From NCBI GenBank assembly GCA_903839855.1, contig CAIMEB010000082.1:1-41232 (forward strand): 41,232 nucleotides of DNA. Reading direction: 5' to 3'. The notes beneath the pieces were generated by a model. That model did no database searches. It was not told the origin of the DNA and saw nothing but the letters and a program-made list of their open reading frames with translations. Position 1 is the first letter of the stretch. Every line of letters begins with the position of its first letter. Source of the stretch: an uncultured Methylococcaceae bacterium (lineage in GTDB: Bacteria; Pseudomonadota; Gammaproteobacteria; Methylococcales; Methylomonadaceae). Positions 1-6,764 of the stretch are shown here, in pieces. The position numbers were made by a program, and so were the translations under genes.

Positions 1-64
1 GATTTTTATGCATCTCTTCTAAGGTGAGAATTTCTTGCGAGGTGAGCTGTTTTATATAGAGCAT
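1..64 (-). CDS. Possible IS630-type transposase, N-terminal fragment (runs off the window)
   Basis: Reading leftwards from the ATG at 62-64 gives an open frame of 21 codons that leaves the window, beginning MLYIKQLTSQEI and continuing LTLEEMHKN. The spacing of a short 'LT..E...LEEMH..H/N' motif at the N-terminus resembles the helix-turn-helix start of IS630-family transposases as I remember them. The fragment is too short for a firm call; an unrelated small gene is the alternative. It lies downstream of pqqE on the same strand, so it would mark an insertion or rearrangement boundary at the end of the PQQ operon. Confidence 0.35.
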   Translation of the reverse strand, partial: MLYIKQLTSQEILTLEEMHKN

Positions 65-212
65 TTATAATTTAAAAATGACTCTATCATACGCTAAACA
101 TGCCAGGCCTTAGTTAAATTAATTATTCATAAGTACTTAAATTATGATTAATAACTATCGTAATGTACACAAGTAAATAATGAAAGTAAAGCTGATGAAG
201 CAGGAAATGCAA

Positions 213-243
213 GGGCTTTAACTACAGTATTTAGTTAAAGCCC
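213..243 (-). terminator. Hairpin downstream of pqqE
   Basis: A perfect 12-bp stem (GGGCTTTAACTA at 213-224 pairing with 232-243, 7-nt loop) starts about 20 nt past the pqqE stop codon. No good U-tract follows on the minus strand, so it may be a weak or factor-assisted terminator or an RNA-stabilising 3' hairpin for the pqq transcript. A separate perfect 16-bp palindrome, ATTATCTTAAGATAAT at 257-272, overlaps the pqqE stop codon. Confidence 0.5.
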
Positions 244-262
244 CTCTGGCTATGACATTATC

Positions 263-1390
263 TTAAGATAATAGCTTTGAGTTTTTACTGTTGCGAAAGA
301 CTAGCGGTTTTTCATTTGCTGATAACGCACTTTGAGTGGCTGAATCAATGGCCTCTTGAATCACGCCATGATGAGGGGATTTGCTACACACCGGGTCTGC
401 GTTGTGCATATCACCCGTCAATAAGTAAGCTTGGCAATGGCAGCCGCCAAAATCTTTTTCTTTTTCGTCACAACTGCTACAGGGTTCCTTCATCCAGTCC
501 GTGCCTCTGAAGTAACTAAAGGCTTTGGAGTCGTTCCAGATGTCTTCTATGCTGTAATCTTTTACATTCGGACAGTCAAGCCCGGGCAGTTCTCGTGCTG
601 AATGACACGGTAACGCAACGCCATCAGGTGCGATGGTTAAAAAAGTGGTGCCCCAACCATTCATACAGGCTTTAGGGCGGTCTTCATAAAAATCGGGCAC
701 CACATAATAGATTTTCATTTTACCCGCGACCTTTTCTTTAAAGGCCTGGGCAATGGCTTCGGCTTTTTCAAACTGCTCTTGGGTAGGTAACAATAAGTCC
801 CGATTAATATGCGCCCAACCGTAATATTGCGTGTTGGCTAATTCCAGATAATCAGCCCCTAATTCTTCTGCCATAGCAAGTATCTCTGGCATTTGATAAA
901 TATTCTCACGGTGTAATACCACACATAACACCATCGGATAGCCATGCTTTTTAACAAGATGCGCGACTTCTTGCTTGTGAGTAAACGATGCTGTACCCGC
1001 AATATGATCATTTAATTCCTGGCTACTGGCCTGAATGCTCACTTGAATATGATCCAGTCCCGCTTCTTTTAGGGTGATGATTTTATCTTCCGTTAAGCCA
1101 TAGCCCGACGTAATTAAATTGGAATAATAACCTAGGTCTCGGGCATGTTTAACCAGTTCTGGCAGATCTTGTCGGGTTAGCGGTTCTCCACCCGAAAAGC
1201 CTAGTTGTACTGCGCCCATTTTGCGGGCTTGGCTAAGCACACGTTTCCAGCCGTCCGTGTCTAATTCATCTTGATATTTGCTGTAATCAAGTGGATTAGA
1301 ACAATACGGACATTGTAGTGGGCAGGCATAAGTGAGCTCTGCTAATAACCAACGCGGAGGCGTGGGTTTAGTTTTGGTTAATCCAGCCAT
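263..1390 (-). CDS. pqqE: PqqE, PqqA peptide cyclase (radical SAM)
   Basis: This radical SAM enzyme makes the Glu-Tyr carbon-carbon crosslink in the PqqA peptide, the first step of pyrroloquinoline quinone synthesis, working with the chaperone PqqD. The radical SAM motif CPLQCPYC (C23, C27, C30 from the chosen start) is intact. A C-terminal SPASM-type cysteine cluster for auxiliary iron-sulfur clusters is visible in the CSSCDEKEKDFGGCHC region. The length of 375 aa is normal. I chose the ATG at 1390 (MAGLTKTK...) over an in-frame TTG at 1402 because an AGAGG box sits 12 nt upstream. The start overlaps the 3' end of pqqD by 23 nt, which suggests translational coupling. It is the last gene of the operon. 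Confidence 0.96.
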   Translation of the reverse strand: MAGLTKTKPTPPRWLLAELTYACPLQCPYCSNPLDYSKYQDELDTDGWKRVLSQARKMGAVQLGFSGGEPLTRQDLPELVKHARDLGYYSNLITSGYGLTEDKIITLKEAGLDHIQVSIQASSQELNDHIAGTASFTHKQEVAHLVKKHGYPMVLCVVLHRENIYQMPEILAMAEELGADYLELANTQYYGWAHINRDLLLPTQEQFEKAEAIAQAFKEKVAGKMKIYYVVPDFYEDRPKACMNGWGTTFLTIAPDGVALPCHSARELPGLDCPNVKDYSIEDIWNDSKAFSYFRGTDWMKEPCSSCDEKEKDFGGCHCQAYLLTGDMHNADPVCSKSPHHGVIQEAIDSATQSALSANEKPLVFRNSKNSKLLS

Positions 1391-1640
1391 TTTGTAATGC
1401 AACCTCTAAAAAAGCGGTGATGTCGTTAGTGAGTCCTGAGGTACTGAAAGCAGTTTCTAAATCGCTGACGATTTGAGCGAGGGTGCGCGTGCCATCACAG
1501 AGTTTTAGAATCTCAGCCGAGCTTTGATTAAGTTCCACCATGCCTTCTGGGTAAAGAATGACGTTCTTTTGTTGGGCTTCTTCCCATTGTAAGCGGTGAG
1601 TGCGAGAAAACTGAATAGGTAGATCTGGATTTATACTCAT
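1368..1640 (-). CDS. pqqD: PqqD, PqqA-binding chaperone
   Basis: PqqD is a small peptide-binding protein that presents PqqA to PqqE. The 90-aa product has the family layout: an N-terminal strand (P..F.R.HRLQWEEAQ), the 'VILYPEGMVELNQSSAEIL.LCDG' core, and a helical tail. The ATG at 1640 has no obvious Shine-Dalgarno sequence. In uninterrupted pqq operons pqqD usually follows pqqC directly, but here about 2.3 kb of foreign-looking genes lie between them. Expression may therefore depend on read-through or on a promoter in 1641-1749; I saw no convincing promoter there, only a weak TTGATT-like hexamer. Confidence 0.93.
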   Translation of the reverse strand: MSINPDLPIQFSRTHRLQWEEAQQKNVILYPEGMVELNQSSAEILKLCDGTRTLAQIVSDLETAFSTSGLTNDITAFLEVALQNGWINQN

Positions 1641-1749
1641 TATTTATGTTTTGTATTAAGTTAAGAAGAAGTCTCAATATTTCGATAGTTGTTTTTAATG
1701 AATTTTAGATATGCTCCAATCAAGTTACTATTATGGATTGATATCTTTA

Positions 1750-2379
1750 CTATTTGCAGCATTTGAAAATATTTTCGCCAAGTTTAAAAATAAATTCGAC
1801 AGCTTCTTTTACATCGGTTTCATCGATACTATTACGTAAATTTGTTTGTAAATCAATATCAGCTTCATGAACGATTAAATTTCTTCGACTAACGATACTT
1901 TTTAATTTCTTTTTTATATCGTCGTCACTACTATTAAACAGCCTAGCTATTTCTTGCCATTTTTGCTTTTCTTCCCAAATAAAACTTAACGCATCCGCGA
2001 TTTTATCGGGTTCTTGAAAAGCTAAATATTTATGTTTGACAATAATTTCCTGTTCAAAAAAGTATTCTGGGGGTTCTAATTGAAAGATATTCGGTTGTTG
2101 GCTGGTTTGTTGAATTTTATTGTAAGTTTCTAAAGAAATAGAAAAACAATTGAATTTTTTTGTTTTTGTACGTTGATTTATAAAAGCCTGTAACATGCCA
2201 ATTTTAACCAATTCATGTATTAATTTATCTAAGGCACTAATTGCGTAAACTAATTGTGATCTTAAAATATCAGATAAATCATTAGGCAGTTTCAAATCGC
2301 TTATCAAGTGATGATAGAGGGTATCCATTTCATTAACGGCTTTAATATTGCTCTTAAATTGCTCAAACGCCTTTAGCAT
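1750..2379 (-). CDS. HEPN-domain protein, putative RNase (RxxxxH motif)
   Basis: The protein has 209 aa from the ATG at 2379; an in-frame TTG at 2394 would add 5 aa. It is mostly helical. Near the C-terminus it carries SRRNLIVHEAD, in which R166 and H171 fit the R-x4-H catalytic signature of HEPN ribonucleases, in the sequence style of the RiboL-PSP/MAE_28990-like group. HEPN proteins are commonly toxins or effectors that cleave RNA in toxin-antitoxin, abortive-infection and CRISPR systems. The start overlaps the end of the upstream ParA-like gene by 17 nt, so the two are almost certainly co-translated. The family is assigned by motif only; a non-catalytic HEPN role is possible. It is AT-rich compared with the pqq genes on either side. 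Confidence 0.68.
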   Translation of the reverse strand: MLKAFEQFKSNIKAVNEMDTLYHHLISDLKLPNDLSDILRSQLVYAISALDKLIHELVKIGMLQAFINQRTKTKKFNCFSISLETYNKIQQTSQQPNIFQLEPPEYFFEQEIIVKHKYLAFQEPDKIADALSFIWEEKQKWQEIARLFNSSDDDIKKKLKSIVSRRNLIVHEADIDLQTNLRNSIDETDVKEAVEFIFKLGENIFKCCK

Positions 2380-3406
2380 ATTTTTCCAAGCCAATGATTT
2401 TATAAGCTAACGCCTTAAAATCCTCATGAAATCTATCTCTATTGGTTTCTAAACCTTGTAATACAGACCCTGTTTCTGCTATTTGTGCGCTTGTTAATGC
2501 AAATACGGGCACACCTGCTTCATAAGACTTTGGCAACAATCCTTGAAAATCCTTTAATTCTAATACACAGAAATCATCTGAAATACCAACTTCATCATAA
2601 ACTGCTTGTGGGAAAAGCATGTGATGTTTAGCGATTTCTGGGGCAAATTTTTCGCGTACAATATTTTTTATTTCGCTAATATTATCTCGGTAAGGTCTTG
2701 CAGCTTTGCCTTTTCTTATATTAAACCTCTGAATTAATTCACCGATAAATTTAGGTTGTGCGTTTGCCAACGGATAGGTTGCATCTGCAAACAATGGGCG
2801 CATTCTCTCTGCCCAATCAACCCATCTGGGCAAAACAACAGAAAGAGTATTGAGCGCCATGATTGAGAAAGGGTCAGGATTAGTTGGGATAATGAAAGCA
2901 TCACTGGAGATAAAAAGATTTTGATTAATAGCACTTAGTCCAGGATTAAGATCAATCAAAACAAAATCAATATTATATCTTGCCGCTGTTTTTCCAATTA
3001 ACTCATTGAATGCACCTGGTAAGTTTTCAAGTGCAGTAATGGCGTTGTTTGAGTTTTGGGCAAAACTCAATGATGCGTCATATTCACTTAAATCAGCATG
3101 TCCCGCCAATAAAAACAAATTACCATTGACCGCAGGGCTGAAACAAGAAACGGCTTCTATGGGTTTGGGTTTTCCTTGAAAAGCAACTTTTACGCCGTCT
3201 TTTATATTTTGAAATTGAGTTGTAGGCTCAAAATAATATTTTTCGAAATCTTCGCCTAAAATTAAACTTGAGAGATTACATTGAGGATCTGCATCTACAA
3301 GCAATACTTTTTTCCCAAGAGAAGCCAGCATCCATCCTAGATTGTAGGTGGTTGTCGTTTTGCTTACCCCACCTTTGTGATTAAAAAGTACAATTTTTGT
3401 AGTCAT
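2363..3406 (-). CDS. ParA/Soj-family P-loop ATPase
   Basis: The 347-aa product starts with a deviant Walker A motif, KGGVSKTT (residues 11-18), followed by VLLVDADPQCNLSS and, later, the Walker B-like segment IDFVLIDLNPGLSAINQN. These are hallmarks of the ParA/MinD/Soj family, which forms ATP-dependent dimers that often bind DNA. No parB-like gene is adjacent; the translationally coupled partner is the HEPN protein. The protein is longer than chromosomal Soj (about 255 aa), with an extra C-terminal region (about residues 250-347) of unknown role. This arrangement points to an accessory module, perhaps defence or addiction, rather than chromosome partitioning. A 14-bp palindrome overlaps the ribosome-binding region upstream of the start. 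Confidence 0.85.
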   Translation of the reverse strand: MTTKIVLFNHKGGVSKTTTTYNLGWMLASLGKKVLLVDADPQCNLSSLILGEDFEKYYFEPTTQFQNIKDGVKVAFQGKPKPIEAVSCFSPAVNGNLFLLAGHADLSEYDASLSFAQNSNNAITALENLPGAFNELIGKTAARYNIDFVLIDLNPGLSAINQNLFISSDAFIIPTNPDPFSIMALNTLSVVLPRWVDWAERMRPLFADATYPLANAQPKFIGELIQRFNIRKGKAARPYRDNISEIKNIVREKFAPEIAKHHMLFPQAVYDEVGISDDFCVLELKDFQGLLPKSYEAGVPVFALTSAQIAETGSVLQGLETNRDRFHEDFKALAYKIIGLEKYAKGV

Positions 3407-3411
3407 AATGT

Positions 3412-3425
3412 ATTCGCTGGCGAAT
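3412..3425. promoter_or_regulatory. Palindrome at the parA-like gene start (candidate operator)
   Basis: ATTCGC-TG-GCGAAT is an inverted repeat with 6-bp arms and a 2-nt centre. It ends 5 nt upstream of the ATG of the ParA-like gene and takes the place of a recognisable Shine-Dalgarno sequence. Autoregulated toxin-antitoxin and partition operons often carry such an operator here, but binding by the encoded proteins is only inference. Confidence 0.35.
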
Positions 3426-3479
3426 GTGATTGGTTGTGATGCCCTGCGGTTTAGCGCGGTAGGCGTAAAGAGTCCTATT

Positions 3480-3947
3480 TTACTTAATGGTTAACTTGAT
3501 GCCGTAAGTTGATTGTTCTAATTCCCCTGTTTTGCCATAATAATCAACAACGCCATTTTCCCAGACAATCCAAACTTCCTCTGCGCCTGCCTGCAAATAG
3601 AGCTGCACTTTGTTGGTCATTTCTTCTTTAGAGTTGGAAGGAGACACAATTTCAACGCACAGTTCAGGCGCGTATGAATAGGGCGTTTGATAACCATATT
3701 GTTTAATAAATGCCTTGGAACACCAAGCGACATCGGCGACTTTTACCCCATCGGTGGTTTGTACTGAGCATTCGGTGAGTGCCTCGCCTTTCTTGAGTTT
3801 GCGTTCAAGCAATGTGCCGATTTGTGACTGTAAACGACCGTGTTTATTGGAAGCCGGGGTCATTTCAACTTTTCCATAGCGGTTTAACTCAATCTTAAAA
3901 GGCAAGTTTTTAAAATACGGATTATCAATTACTTCTGACCATTGCAT
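3480..3947 (-). CDS. Uma2-family (DUF820) putative endonuclease
   Basis: The 155-aa product has the Uma2/DUF820 layout of a PD-(D/E)XK-like restriction fold: an N-terminal 'E..RYGKVEMTPAS..HG..QS.I' segment, a central acidic residue in VKVADVAWCS, and PELCVEIVSPSNS followed by K..LYLQAGAEEVWIV. These small proteins are abundant in cyanobacteria and methanotrophs, where their biological role is unsettled; some lie next to mobile or defence genes. The ATG at 3947 has a good AGGAAAG box 8 nt upstream. The gene sits just downstream of pqqC (34 nt gap) and upstream of the ParA-like gene, so it belongs to the block that splits the pqq operon. Confidence 0.85.
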   Translation of the reverse strand: MQWSEVIDNPYFKNLPFKIELNRYGKVEMTPASNKHGRLQSQIGTLLERKLKKGEALTECSVQTTDGVKVADVAWCSKAFIKQYGYQTPYSYAPELCVEIVSPSNSKEEMTNKVQLYLQAGAEEVWIVWENGVVDYYGKTGELEQSTYGIKLTIK

Positions 3948-3981
3948 CGCATCTTTCCTGTTATATCAACACTAAAGCAAG

Positions 3982-4713
3982 CTAAGCTTCAATATTATAA
4001 TACGGAGGCATGTCATTGATATAAGCCATATACATGGCATCAGCCATTGTCCATAGCACATCTAGTTTAAATTTTAATATCTCTATCATCCGGTCTTGTT
4101 GTTCACGGGTGTTATACCAGTCCAAGGTAATCGCTAGACCGTGTTCAACATCCCGACGCGCTTCGGTTAGACGCTTACGGAAATAATTGTAGCCTTCGAT
4201 ATCAACCCAAGGGTAGTGCTCAGGCCAGTTATCCAAACGTTGTTGATGAATTTTGGGTGCAAACAGTTCAGTAAGGGATGAACTGGCCGCTTCATGCCAT
4301 TCAGCTCTACGGGCAAAGTTAACATAAGCATCCACTGCAAAACGCACGCCTGGCAATACGTGTTTTAAAGAGGTAATATCTTCGCGTGTCAAACCTACCG
4401 CTATACCTAATTGAATCCAGGCTTCAATGCCGCCTGGATCGCCGGGGTGTCCATCGTGATCTAAAATACGTTGTATCCATTTCGCACGGGTTTCCCGGTC
4501 AGGACAGTTAGCTAAAATATTAGCATCTTTAATAGGAATACTAACTTGATAATAGAAGCGGTTAGCGACCCAGCCCTGTAATTGTTCACGGGTGAGTTTT
4601 CCGTCATTCATCAGGGTGTGGTAAGGGTGATGAATATGGTAATACTTTTCCATACCGCGCAGGGCGGCTTCAAATTCGGTTGTTGTCCATGCTTTATTAT
4701 CGTTATTGCTCAT
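3982..4713 (-). CDS. pqqC: PqqC, pyrroloquinoline-quinone synthase
   Basis: PqqC catalyses the final ring closure and eight-electron oxidation that yields PQQ, without a metal cofactor. The 243-aa product is all-helical with the family's conserved segments: [16 protein letters not shown] near the N-terminus, [16 protein letters not shown], the [10 protein letters not shown] region and [18 protein letters not shown]. The start is the ATG at 4713 (MSNNDNKAW); the in-frame TTG at 4725 is less likely. It follows pqqB after about 60 nt. After it the standard gene order breaks: pqqD is 2.3 kb further on. Confidence 0.96.
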
Positions 4714-4775
4714 GGTGATTTCCAATGTGTGTGAGTCAGAAGTAGGCTTCTGTTAAATACTATCGATCGTAACTA

Positions 4776-5687
4776 CTATAAATCGATTTCCATACCATCG
4801 TAAGATACTTCAATGCCAGCGGCATCCAAGATTTTACGCGGTTCGGAATCTTCGTCTAAAATAGGGTTGGTGTTATTGATGTGGATCAAAATCTTCCGTG
4901 ATTTTGCAACGCCATTCAGTACCTCTATCATACCGCCTGGGCCTGATTGGGGTAAATGCCCGATTTCACGCGCTTTCTTAGGACTAATGCCTTGAGTACA
5001 CATTTCATCTTCAGTCCAGAATGTACCGTCTACCAATAGACAATCAACGGCTTGCAGGGCATCCATTACATGCGGTTCAATTTCGCCGAGACCGGGTGAA
5101 TAAAATACTTTTTTGCCGGTTGATATTTGTTCAATGATAACACCGATGTTATCCCCTTCGTGCGGATCATGGCGGTGCGGTGAGTAAGGTGGTGCTTTGC
5201 TTTTTAAGGCTTGAGTATAAAAGCGTAAGTCGGCTATCGCCGGAATTGTAAAGCCGCTACCATCCACCGGCACGGGATGATGATTGACCGTGCAATAATG
5301 TTCCAGCATGTTAAATAAAGGAAAACCGGTGGTCAGGTCTTGCTTAACCATGTCAGTACAGTACACCTCCAATGGCTTGCCTTCTCTAAGCATTAACAAG
5401 CCGGTAGTATGATCAATCTGGCTATCTATTAACATGATCGCTTTGATACCGGTGTCGCGTATGCCTTCTTTGGGCTGGATAGCGGGGAAGGCTTCCAGTT
5501 GCGCACGAATATCCGGTGAGGTGTTAAAAACCAGCCAGTTTTTATTGTCAGTACTGACCGCAATAGACGACTGAGTGCGGGATTTACCTTGCATGGTGTG
5601 GTTACGTATACGGTGACAATTATGGCAGTTGCAATTCCATTGAGGAAAGCCACCACCCGCACCTGAACCAAGAACTCTAATTTTCAT
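4776..5687 (-). CDS. pqqB: PqqB, metallo-beta-lactamase-fold PQQ biosynthesis protein
   Basis: The 303-aa product has the metallo-beta-lactamase fold of PqqB, thought to hydroxylate the tyrosine of the crosslinked PqqA-derived intermediate. Visible features are the N-terminal [15 protein letters not shown] start, a CNCHNC cysteine cluster (potential metal site), the [14 protein letters not shown] strand-loop, [23 protein letters not shown] and a C-terminal [13 protein letters not shown] motif. Length matches the family. It is read after the hairpin that follows pqqA, so its level is probably below that of pqqA. Confidence 0.96.
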
Positions 5688-5741
5688 ATTGAAAGCCTAA
5701 GAAGAAATGTTTAAATGATACGGGAATAACGATTTTCAGGC

Positions 5742-5770
5742 AAAAAAAAGGGGCTCTTATGAACCCCTTT
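5742..5770 (-). terminator. Intrinsic terminator/attenuator between pqqA and pqqB
   Basis: On the minus strand AAAGGGGTTC-ATAA-GAGCCCCTTT is followed by a run of eight T residues: a textbook Rho-independent hairpin with one G-T pair. It lies about 50 nt past the pqqA stop and about 55 nt before pqqB. Partial termination here would give an abundant short pqqA transcript and less pqqB-E mRNA. This suits a peptide substrate needed in excess over its enzymes, and short pqqA-rich transcripts are known in other PQQ producers. Confidence 0.8.
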
Positions 5771-5818
5771 CTTTATACCGACCATTGTAGCTCCCGACAA
5801 TTAAGTCAGGAAAAGTGC

Positions 5819-5893
5819 TTAACGGTTGTAGATGTACATTGTAACTTCAAAGCCGAAACGTAAGTCAGTAAAGCTTGGTGTTTCCCATTTCAT
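5819..5893 (-). CDS. pqqA: PqqA, PQQ precursor peptide
   Basis: A 24-codon gene encodes a peptide beginning MKWETPSFTDLRFGFEVT and ending MYIYNR. The invariant Glu and Tyr of the ExxxY motif (E16 and Y20) are present; PqqE crosslinks these two side chains to build PQQ. A strong GGAGG Shine-Dalgarno lies 7 nt before the ATG. It is the first gene of the operon, is preceded by a near-consensus promoter and is followed by an attenuator hairpin. Confidence 0.95.
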   Translation of the reverse strand: MKWETPSFTDLRFGFEVTMYIYNR

Positions 5894-5953
5894 AGTGAAC
5901 CTCCGGTAATTATTAGAATAGAGTTGCTAGCTTGATCAAGTAAGCCAGTTAAA

Positions 5954-5982
5954 ATTATACGATGAACTATTTTTTTAAGCAA
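5954..5982 (-). promoter_or_regulatory. Sigma-70-type promoter of pqqA
   Basis: On the minus strand TTGCTT (5977-5982) and TATAAT (5954-5959) are separated by exactly 17 bp containing an A-tract. Transcription would start near 5947, leaving a leader of roughly 50 nt before pqqA. The -10 box is perfect and the -35 box matches 4 of 6 consensus bases (TTGACA). Confidence 0.65.
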
Positions 5983-6021
5983 CAACTGTACGATTTACAG
6001 GGAACTCATATAAAATACCAA

Positions 6022-6070
6022 ACAGTCAGTAACCTCGGTGACATTTTACGCCATCGAGACGACTGGCTGT
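6022..6070. promoter_or_regulatory. Dyad-symmetric element upstream of the pqqA promoter
   Basis: Outer arms ACAGTCAGT (6022-6030) and ACTGGCTGT (6062-6070) pair at 8 of 9 positions. Inner arms CTCG (6034-6037) and CGAG (6055-6058) keep the same 3-nt offset on both sides. The dyad is centred about 65 bp upstream of the -35 box, a typical place for an activator site, or it could be a transcribed hairpin. No known regulator motif was recognised. The rest of 5983-6172 shows nothing else. Confidence 0.35.
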
Positions 6071-6172
6071 AGTATTCTTATCATAACTACGTCATAATAA
6101 CCCTCTATCTAGTTGACTTTTAAATTAAAAGCCATGGGATATTCCTATCAAAACTATGCTATTTAATTGTTT

Positions 6173-6295
6173 ATGCGGCCTAAAAATAAATCGGCACGAG
6201 AGAGGCTGAATGCTACTTTTATTGGCTCAGGTAATGCTGATTGGCCGCTACTGGTTGAAAAATTAGTGAGTCTTCTTGGTATGTATGGCACCTAA
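6173..6295 (+). pseudogene. Short ORF fragment, unidentified
   Basis: A 40-codon open frame starts MRPKNKSARERLNATF and ends at a TAA just before the HipA-like remnant. Its composition looks like real coding sequence (a basic N-terminus, then DWPLLVEKLVSLLG), but it is too short to name. It lies in line with two other broken gene pieces, so it is most simply read as debris of a larger lost locus. An independent small gene is possible, although no clear Shine-Dalgarno precedes it. Confidence 0.3.
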
Positions 6296-6443
6296 AACTT
6301 TAGTGCAAGAAGTGCTGATTTTATGGTGGTTCGGTCGATTAATAGGCAATACCGATATGCATCTGGGCAATCTTTTTACCACCAAAGCAAACGAAACTTC
6401 TTTGATAATAAACGTAACGATCACTATTCATTACGTAACGTAG
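6270..6443 (+). pseudogene. HipA-type kinase remnant
   Basis: In the frame open from 6270 to the TAG at 6441-6443, the sequence WWFGRLIGNTDMHLGNLF carries the HipA/YjjJ-family catalytic-loop signature N-x-D-x-H-x-x-N. HipA-type proteins are Ser/Thr kinases acting as toxins in type II toxin-antitoxin modules. Only about 30 codons are recognisable; the C-terminal part dissolves into the 42-bp repeat array and no intact N-terminus is nearby. It is a dead fragment. Confidence 0.6.
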
Positions 6444-6622
6444 ACAGTTTGAAACGTAACGTTCGCTATTGATTACGTAACGTAAGTAGTTAAAATCGTA
6501 ACGTTCATAATTGATTACGTAACGAAAGTAGTTTGAAACATAACGTTTATTATTGACTACGTAACGAACGTAGTTAGAAACGTAACGTTTATTATTAATT
6601 ACGTAACGAACGTAGTTAGAAA
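6405..6622. repeat. 42-bp tandem repeat array with 21-bp-phased ACGTAACG boxes
   Basis: About five diverged 42-bp units follow one another. Each splits into two 21-bp halves that both contain (A)CGTAACG, so the box recurs every 20-22 bp, or about two helical turns. The units closest to 6620 are most alike (for example gaaacgtaacgtttattatta then attacgtaacgaacgtagtta); the left units are more degenerate. The minus strand is open across it and would encode a heptad-like RYV.N.. repeat, probably an accident of the period being a multiple of three. The array separates the HipA remnant from the DUF2442 remnant. It could be a protein-binding (iteron-like) array, a recombination product or simple expansion. 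Confidence 0.85.
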
Positions 6623-6764
6623 AGAACTCCAATCAGCAACATTTAGACAGTTAACTAATTACCAGTTTATTTGCCAAGGATCAGGCATAGAATGGATAGA
6701 ATTAGATTATCATTTAAACATTGAAAGCATGCTACTTTCACAGATAAAAGAGCAGGCAGCGTAA
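6618..6764 (+). pseudogene. DUF2442-family C-terminal remnant
   Basis: The frame ending at the TAA 6762-6764 reads KELQSATFRQLTNYQF then ICQGSGIEWIELDYHLNIES and MLLSQIKEQ. It matches the ending pattern of DUF2442 proteins (L..AT..Q...Y...G.G.GI.W..LD.DL....LL). The N-terminal half is missing, replaced by the repeat array. DUF2442 proteins often accompany small DUF4160-type partners in toxin-antitoxin-like pairs, so this is consistent with an eroded accessory locus. Confidence 0.6.

Follow-up and report, generated by a model that had tools for sequence, protein, structure and literature searches.

Hotspots for defence and addiction genes are usually seen as integrase-bearing islands beside tRNAs or core genes. 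They have been described in phages, satellites and genomic islands (PMC9122126; PMC12629846). The dyad of a ParA/Soj-type ATPase and a HEPN protein was predicted to be a toxin-antitoxin system, with the ATPase as antitoxin and the HEPN protein as RNase toxin, and active HEPN families are described as keeping an Rx4-6H motif (Anantharaman et al., 2013; PMC3710099). Uma2 proteins (COG4636), predicted to be PD-(D/E)XK endonucleases, were listed as likely solo toxins occurring mostly in paralogue cassettes (Makarova et al., 2009; PMC2701414). In the HEPN-MNT (HepT-MntA) systems, a HEPN RNase toxin is accompanied by a nucleotide-using partner.

The locus discussed here consists of parts of these known kinds; what is new is its site, which is internal to an operon and free of integrases. 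It resembles the defence hotspots of PMC9122126 and PMC12629846 in that one locus holds many alternative cargoes in close relatives, but differs from them in lying inside a core biosynthetic operon, in having no integrase and in the strict co-orientation of its cargo. Like the 2013 dyad, it pairs the gene of a ParA/Soj ATPase with that of an adjoining HEPN protein, which has an R-x4-H motif. However, the passages of PMC3710099 on the dyad name the MAE_18760 HEPN family, whereas Pfam assigns the present protein to PF18735 (RiboL-PSP-HEPN), and they discuss no genomic site. Adjoining Uma2 genes, found in three genomes (G111, G177 and G013), recall the paralogue cassettes, although the part of PMC2701414 dealing with Uma2 gives the family as cyanobacteria-specific and it is found here in methanotroph pqq operons. 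Unlike HepT-MntA, in which the partner is a nucleotidyltransferase, the HEPN protein is accompanied by a ParA-type ATPase. In the open-licence PMC literature, we found no description of cargo at the pqqC-pqqD junction (including pqqC with Uma2), of an operon-internal hotspot of such a kind or, since 2019, of a HEPN protein with a ParA-like ATPase as an anti-phage system; the pertinent passages of a Pf-phage paper (PMC7549136) and of PMC5920175 hold nothing decisive on the pair or the junction.

Organization of the interrupted pqq operon

The window, meaning the whole stretch of 41,232 nucleotides analysed (contig CAIMEB010000082.1 of an uncultured Methylococcaceae bacterium, genome G000), carries pqqA to pqqE on its minus strand. 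The gene pqqA (5822..5893) is a 24-codon ORF with its stop at 5819-5821, and the peptide read from the window was used for tblastn. The genes pqqB (4776..5687; TIGR02108, 2.4e-123), pqqC (3982..4713; TIGR02111, 4.9e-110), pqqD (1368..1640; TIGR03859 and NF002535) and pqqE (263..1402, overlapping pqqD; TIGR02109, 1.1e-161) are intact, each scoring above its own NCBIfam equivalog cut-off. ORF calls, Pfam/NCBIfam profiles and tblastn thus agree with the original prediction that pqqA-E are intact on one strand with three genes separating pqqC from pqqD, and the spacing, given there as about 2.3 kb, measures 2341 bp from the pqqC stop to the pqqD start.

All three intervening genes are co-directional with the pqq genes. 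The first, 34 nt from pqqC, encodes a Uma2-family protein of subtype 1 (3480..3947; PF05685, 3e-17, 63.1 bits against a gathering score of 27). After 73 nt it is followed by the gene of a ParA/Soj-like ATPase (2363..3406; PF13614, 1.9e-28), which overlaps that of a HEPN protein and predicted RNase toxin (1750..2379; PF18735 HEPN_RiboL-PSP, 4.5e-12). The latter begins with an ATG at 2379, or with a TTG that extends the ORF to 2394, and ends 109 nt before pqqD. Because their GC3 is 0.26 (ParA) and 0.25 (HEPN) vs 0.40-0.45 for pqqB, C, D, E and Uma2, the ParA-HEPN pair, unlike Uma2, looks foreign by composition.

The pqqC-pqqD junction as a hotspot

In this methanotroph family, inserts recur at the pqqC-pqqD junction, a hotspot internal to the operon, of which the G000 allele is one recent example. 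Within the genus of G000, pqqD is present in 31/35 genomes. Of the 24 in which a single contig holds both pqqC and pqqD, 13 have 553-2663 bp between them and 11 have 14-70 bp; these gaps, like those of the cargo map below, were counted from where the pqqC match ends, which makes them 3-6 nt too long. The other junctions of the operon are uninterrupted, with 108-140 bp for A-B (21 measured), 3-171 bp for B-C (22 measured) and a 32-nt overlap of the D and E matches in all 30 genus genomes measured. In seven genus genomes (G008, G009, G024, G026, G029, G032 and G033), pqqC and pqqD are on separate contigs. An 861-aa gene, presumably ClpB-like, faces pqqD in five of the seven, and in these the operon is therefore split at the pqqC-pqqD junction itself. 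The atp operon, the sole other operon used as a control, gave 194 junction cells, none with a gap above 137 bp (ten junctions including neighbours, 20 genus genomes). The mxa operon was dropped as a second control, with PF02315 in only 6/35 genomes.

Typing of the family covered genomes at least 85% complete and their strongest matches, and assumed a single pqqC length. Among the matches listed, 80 of the 98 typed genomes carry pqqC and pqqD on the same strand and no more than 20 kb apart, with a gap of more than 400 bp in 53 and of less than 100 bp in 21; adding the tight genomes G018, G025 and G031 gives 53/83 and 24, respectively. G206, with the two genes on different contigs, was left out of this count, as were the seven split genus genomes. 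The outgroup sample comprised 52 of the 81 genomes listed, two of them without a match and one (G250) without a pqqD among the matches listed. Here, the distance is -4 to 158 bp in 41/42 pairs that share contig and strand, and 2.5 Mb in the remaining pair; in 5 further genomes the genes are adjacent via a single read-through match, and in 2 they are on different contigs. Thus, 46/47 same-contig cases outside the family are within 158 bp, and there were no inserts at pqqC-pqqD among the genomes typed there. As the outgroup genomes are tight without an insert, the uninterrupted pqqC-pqqD form is probably ancestral. The block had been proposed to be an insertion, and comparison within the genus, the family and the outgroups supports this: an uninterrupted, ancestral-looking form exists in 11/24 genus genomes and in outgroup families, and the junction varies among relatives, so that they do not all share one arrangement. 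The view of a single event did not stand, since many different cargoes alternate at this hotspot.

What occupies the junction was mapped in 53 gaps of more than 120 bp read from DNA, 49 of them larger than 400 bp (outside the genus, DNA was read for 36 of the 45 genomes with gaps above 400 bp). Uma2 of any of four subtypes is found in 36/49 large gaps and is missing from 13/49; subtype 1, that of the window, is the commonest resident (29/49). The other cargo consists of YgiT-like zinc fingers (12), DUF4258 (11), DUF29 (8), DUF2442 (7) and DUF4160 (6), and more rarely of PIN with a small partner (3), HicB (3), HicA (1), ParA-HEPN (2) and GmrSD_N-HEPN (1). Families were assigned by Pfam, the YgiT label coming from sub-threshold matches; HicB and the PIN partner, with no Pfam match, carry presumptive names based on position. 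All 49 gaps match a class, partly by construction because the classes were derived from the same gaps. The families found support the addiction- or defence-like nature that had been suggested for the inserted genes. In gaps holding several of these, the usual order is DUF29, Uma2, Uma2 subtype 2, PIN or DUF4160-DUF2442-Hic, and DUF4258-YgiT adjoining pqqD. Every matched cargo segment (111/111, not independent events) lies on the pqq strand, a co-orientation that fits selection against polarity.

The junction also changes between close relatives. Among 18 close pairs with a mean flank identity of at least 90%, 8 differ in cargo and 10 have the same cargo or none. Truncated or split cargo copies in eight genomes (G006, G022, G039, G047, G070, G086, G181 and G203), along with the start of a DUF29 gene inside the 146-bp gap of G078, suggest that cargo is lost by decay. 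Genes of another kind occur in genus g13, where the junction holds a glutaredoxin (Pfam) and an ORF that we take to be NlpE-like. Cargo is also found after pqqC where pqqD lies elsewhere (20 genomes looked at), namely a pair named by inspection as DUF262-like and AAA-like in G035 and Uma2 in G168.

The ParA-HEPN pair

The pairing of ParA and HEPN is conserved, and the two genes form a travelling unit that is also found on phage Pf1 and Burkholderia plasmids. A ParA scan of named genomes gave 15 loci, 13 of them with a full ParA, and a HEPN gene came next in 13/13. In 12 of these, the start of the HEPN ORF ranges from 40 nt before the ParA stop to immediately behind it (0 nt); in the other (L120), the called ORF starts 179 nt after it. 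The loci include Methylovulum, Thiomargarita, Chitinophaga, Hymenobacter, Emticicia, Chloroflexota, cyanobacterial and Clostridia-type records, which we take to represent several phyla. The deviant Walker A of ParA/Soj ATPases, KGGVSKTT, is present in the window and invariant in the 13 rows of the ParA alignment. The R-x4-H motif (RNLIVH in the window) is found in all 11 other HEPN alignment rows that reach it, L116 ending first at a contig end, and in the HEPN proteins of Pf1, phage WX-TY and one plasmid copy.

HEPN relatives are found in 9/237 family genomes: G000 itself, four close ones (73-92%) and four distant ones (33-38%), with ParA adjoining in 3/4 of the distant matches. At the pqq site, the pair is present only in G000 and G020; it lies elsewhere in G172, G175 and G227. 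Beyond the family, it is carried by 13 Burkholderia plasmid records (9/13 predicted to be conjugative), by the filamentous phage Pf1, whose annotation lists ParA as Soj-like and omits the HEPN ORF, and by phage WX-TY. Six other phage records have ParA alone, at 31-32% identity, and in IMG/VR eight contigs encode a HEPN relative.

The AF2 models of both proteins are confident (pLDDT 93.3 for HEPN and 87.5 for ParA). A PDB fold search with the HEPN model gave nothing below an E of 0.001; HEPN-MNT toxins (7bxo, 6m6w) were among its weak matches, at E 1.5 and above and with a best probability of 0.60. A PDB sequence search with HEPN returned one chain only, at E 0.19, and in Pfam only PF18735 matched at E<=1. 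PADLOC reported no known anti-phage system, its best matches being to the candidate systems PDC-S03 for Uma2 (4.5e-12) and PDC-M28B for ParA (3.6e-09), with none for HEPN. By analogy with the published dyad, the two genes would be a predicted toxin-antitoxin pair, with HEPN as the toxin and ParA as antitoxin or regulator.

History of the G000 allele

Of the genomes compared, G007 is nearest to G000, with 97.7% identity over 5.5 kb of atp. Identity between the two in pqqABC is 93-100%, and 99-100% over most of it, as far as about position 3900. What sets G000 apart is a tract of about 2.8 kb, placed by sliding identity at approximately 1100..3880 and itself a mosaic. Identity falls to about 90% in Uma2, ParA-HEPN is absent from G007 at pqqC-pqqD, and pqqD with the start of pqqE is only 73-91% identical to G007 vs 96-99% to the best of G021/G018. 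Near 1050, identity is back at 99-100%. In the same pqqD stretch, G007 is 80-98% identical to G017. As the DNA on either side of the tract is 97-100% identical, it points to homologous replacement, and we infer from this pattern that recombination between the conserved flanks was probably its cause. Further down pqqE (750-375), the identity between G000 and G007 drops again, to 88-94%, and therefore other exchanges are likely. No direct or inverted repeats were found bracketing the three-gene block.

The closest copy of the pair at the same site leads to a similar picture. Between G000 and G020, ParA is 94% and HEPN 92% identical, with only 82-83% in pqqC, D and E. Three unrelated cargoes are found in G020 and in two genomes close to it, G016 and G022 (91-95% mean flank identity to G020, up to 99% in windows); G016 and G022 carry GmrSD_N-HEPN and PIN cargo.

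Whether the three genes of the window arrived as one block can be approached through Uma2, whose subtype 1 resides at the junction in many genera. Among 25 genomes, its distances are correlated with those of pqqD (Mantel r 0.62) and pqqC (0.42), the value for pqqC-pqqD being 0.64. Since Uma2 distances track pqqD across genera, Uma2 alone is probably an old resident of the junction within the family. In G172 and G175, however, Uma2, ParA and HEPN stand together as a trio, with no pqq gene within the 3.6 kb examined; in the matching Methylovulum records, the trio comes after a gene that is presumably PurM-like. Thus, ParA-HEPN may have been added to a Uma2 already in place, or all three genes may have moved together.

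Expression of pqqDE

The original prediction pointed to a pqqD without a Shine-Dalgarno sequence and asked how pqqDE are still expressed. Duplex energies confirm the former. Over 31 copies of pqqD, interrupted or not, the mean is +1.05 kcal/mol (range -2.1 to +2.2) vs means of -3.9 for pqqC, -4.8 for Uma2 and -9.9 for pqqA. As the Shine-Dalgarno is weak in all 31 copies, its absence is a genus trait; it is equally absent before uninterrupted pqqD copies, which rules it out as a consequence or scar of the insertion.

A new transcription start in 1641-1749 had also been considered. The scan of positions 1-6300 against shuffles found no minus-strand promoter-like site there and was at shuffle level as a whole, with 20 promoter-like sites (shuffle mean 17.7, sd 3.8) and 6 terminator-like sites (mean 5.1). 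HEPN contains two overlapping minus-strand promoter-like sites (2307-2266). A single minus-strand terminator-like site, weak and located within Uma2 (3727-3714), was found between pqqC and pqqD. Three observations make read-through from the pqqA side, as far as sequence can tell, the most likely way in which pqqDE are expressed: the cargo is co-directional, the lone terminator-like site is weak and no more than expected by chance, and pqqD in the genus does without a Shine-Dalgarno. ParA and pqqD of the window both have a weak Shine-Dalgarno, so that polarity could reduce pqqDE, and with 109 nt between HEPN and pqqD coupled translation is unlikely. In Methylomonas DH-1, the expression of pqqABCDE is called high in a passage that gives no detail per junction (PMC6373157).

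Possible explanations

One explanation takes up the observed hotspot, cargo polarity, mosaic tract and ParA-HEPN pairing together, and we give it a probability of about 0.78. Small autonomous modules of toxin or defence type would settle at pqqC-pqqD in the direction of pqq transcription, homologous recombination, with the conserved pqqC(-Uma2) and pqqD-pqqE as anchors, would swap their alleles between lineages, and they would be lost through piecemeal deletion. The G000 allele would then be Uma2 plus the ParA-HEPN pair. As in the published prediction for the dyad, HEPN would act as effector or RNase toxin, with the ParA/Soj-like ATPase, encoded by the overlapping gene, as its antitoxin or regulator. 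The expression of pqqDE would be kept up via read-through.

The block could also be an old fixed gene order, ancestral to the operon and lost by most relatives. The spread of Uma2 subtype 1 over 29/49 large gaps in many genera and the correlation of its distances with pqqD would agree with this, and for Uma2 alone it probably holds within the family. For ParA-HEPN, the present data speak against it, given the restriction of the pair at pqq to G000 and G020, its occurrence elsewhere in three genomes, its low GC3, its absence from the site in G007 and the tight form in the outgroup families; as an account of the block, it is unlikely. That Uma2 recurs in 36/49 large gaps, with different subtypes in the same place, might alternatively mean that the inserted genes, Uma2 above all, serve PQQ biosynthesis or its regulation. 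Yet pqqC-pqqD is insert-free in 11/24 genomes of the genus and in 46 from the outgroups, 13/49 large gaps lack Uma2, the cargo families are mutually unrelated and the Uma2 matches over all sites range from 0 to 13 per genus genome, which makes such a role very unlikely.

The discrete cargo, the ParA-HEPN pairs on phages and plasmids and the Uma2-ParA-HEPN trio away from pqq in G172 and G175 are what might be expected from a transposon- or integrase-type element inserted at the junction. However, Pfam found no such enzyme family in the three inserts of the window or in 20 proteins of other gaps, no repeat brackets the block, and the tract edges, near the Uma2 start and inside pqqE, are away from the edge of the cassette. 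An integrase-borne island or transposon was rejected on the lack of both enzyme family and bracketing repeats, and we hold an element of this type to be highly improbable. An artefact of binning or assembly might be suspected with G000 in 294 contigs and many of its metagenome-assembled relatives fragmented, but the same hotspot is found in genomes of few contigs (one each in G011 and G115, two in G102 and four in G005), and the 49 large gaps were read from DNA; this source of error is scarcely credible.

A homing-like cycle without an integrase can also be imagined, in which Uma2 would cut a cassette-free or foreign pqqC-pqqD and repair would copy in the resident cassette with its passengers. 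The four Uma2 subtypes at the junction, in 36/49 large gaps, and the tract from Uma2 to pqqE, which is like that of gene conversion, are in its favour; the 13/49 gaps without Uma2 and the Uma2 copies at other places are not. We consider such a cycle improbable.

Significance

In this family, a hotspot lies within a single cofactor operon, between two of its genes, and its alleles show signs of having been exchanged by ordinary homologous recombination. Stable expression or protection of a cassette inside the pqq operon, as the original prediction envisaged, is plausible, and sitting in an indispensable operon may be an advantage. Whether addiction modules lodged in indispensable operons gain stability, and why this junction tolerates them, becomes a testable question, and the many natural alleles of a single site lend themselves to comparing polarity and expression in methanotrophs.

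The ParA-HEPN pair in other records

The predicted toxin-antitoxin pair ParA-HEPN is also encountered in phage Pf1 (L166, AY324828), where a HEPN ORF at 4001-4528, left without annotation in the record, carries RRNSIVH and adjoins a Soj-like gene. In a Synechococcales record (L119, 6694-10122), the protein encoded next after ParA-HEPN has 1142 aa and resembles a type I-D CRISPR protein.

Surroundings of the pqq genes

Upstream of pqqA, the window contains a tandem repeat with a 42-bp unit in 5.1 copies (6410-6622) and, on the strand opposite pqqA, a DUF2442-like remnant (QLTNYQFICQGSGIEWIELDYHL...; 6630-6763, +), recognized by eye as similar to the DUF2442 cargo of pqqC-pqqD gaps. Short ORF pieces at 6164-6443 (+; LIGNTDMHLGNL) have a HipA-like appearance and probably represent a decayed gene.

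At five loci (L052-L056, from G033, G008, G029, G032 and G009), pqqABC and pqqD lie apart. There pqqD adjoins a ClpB-like gene of 861 aa on the opposite strand, and pqqE stays with pqqD wherever the contig extends far enough. A second pqqD-like match, 65% identical, includes a long open frame in genome G016 (L061, contig C671). At the pqqC start of L051 (G006), two overlapping pqqC matches (61% and 95%) suggest that the 5' part of this gene has been rearranged.
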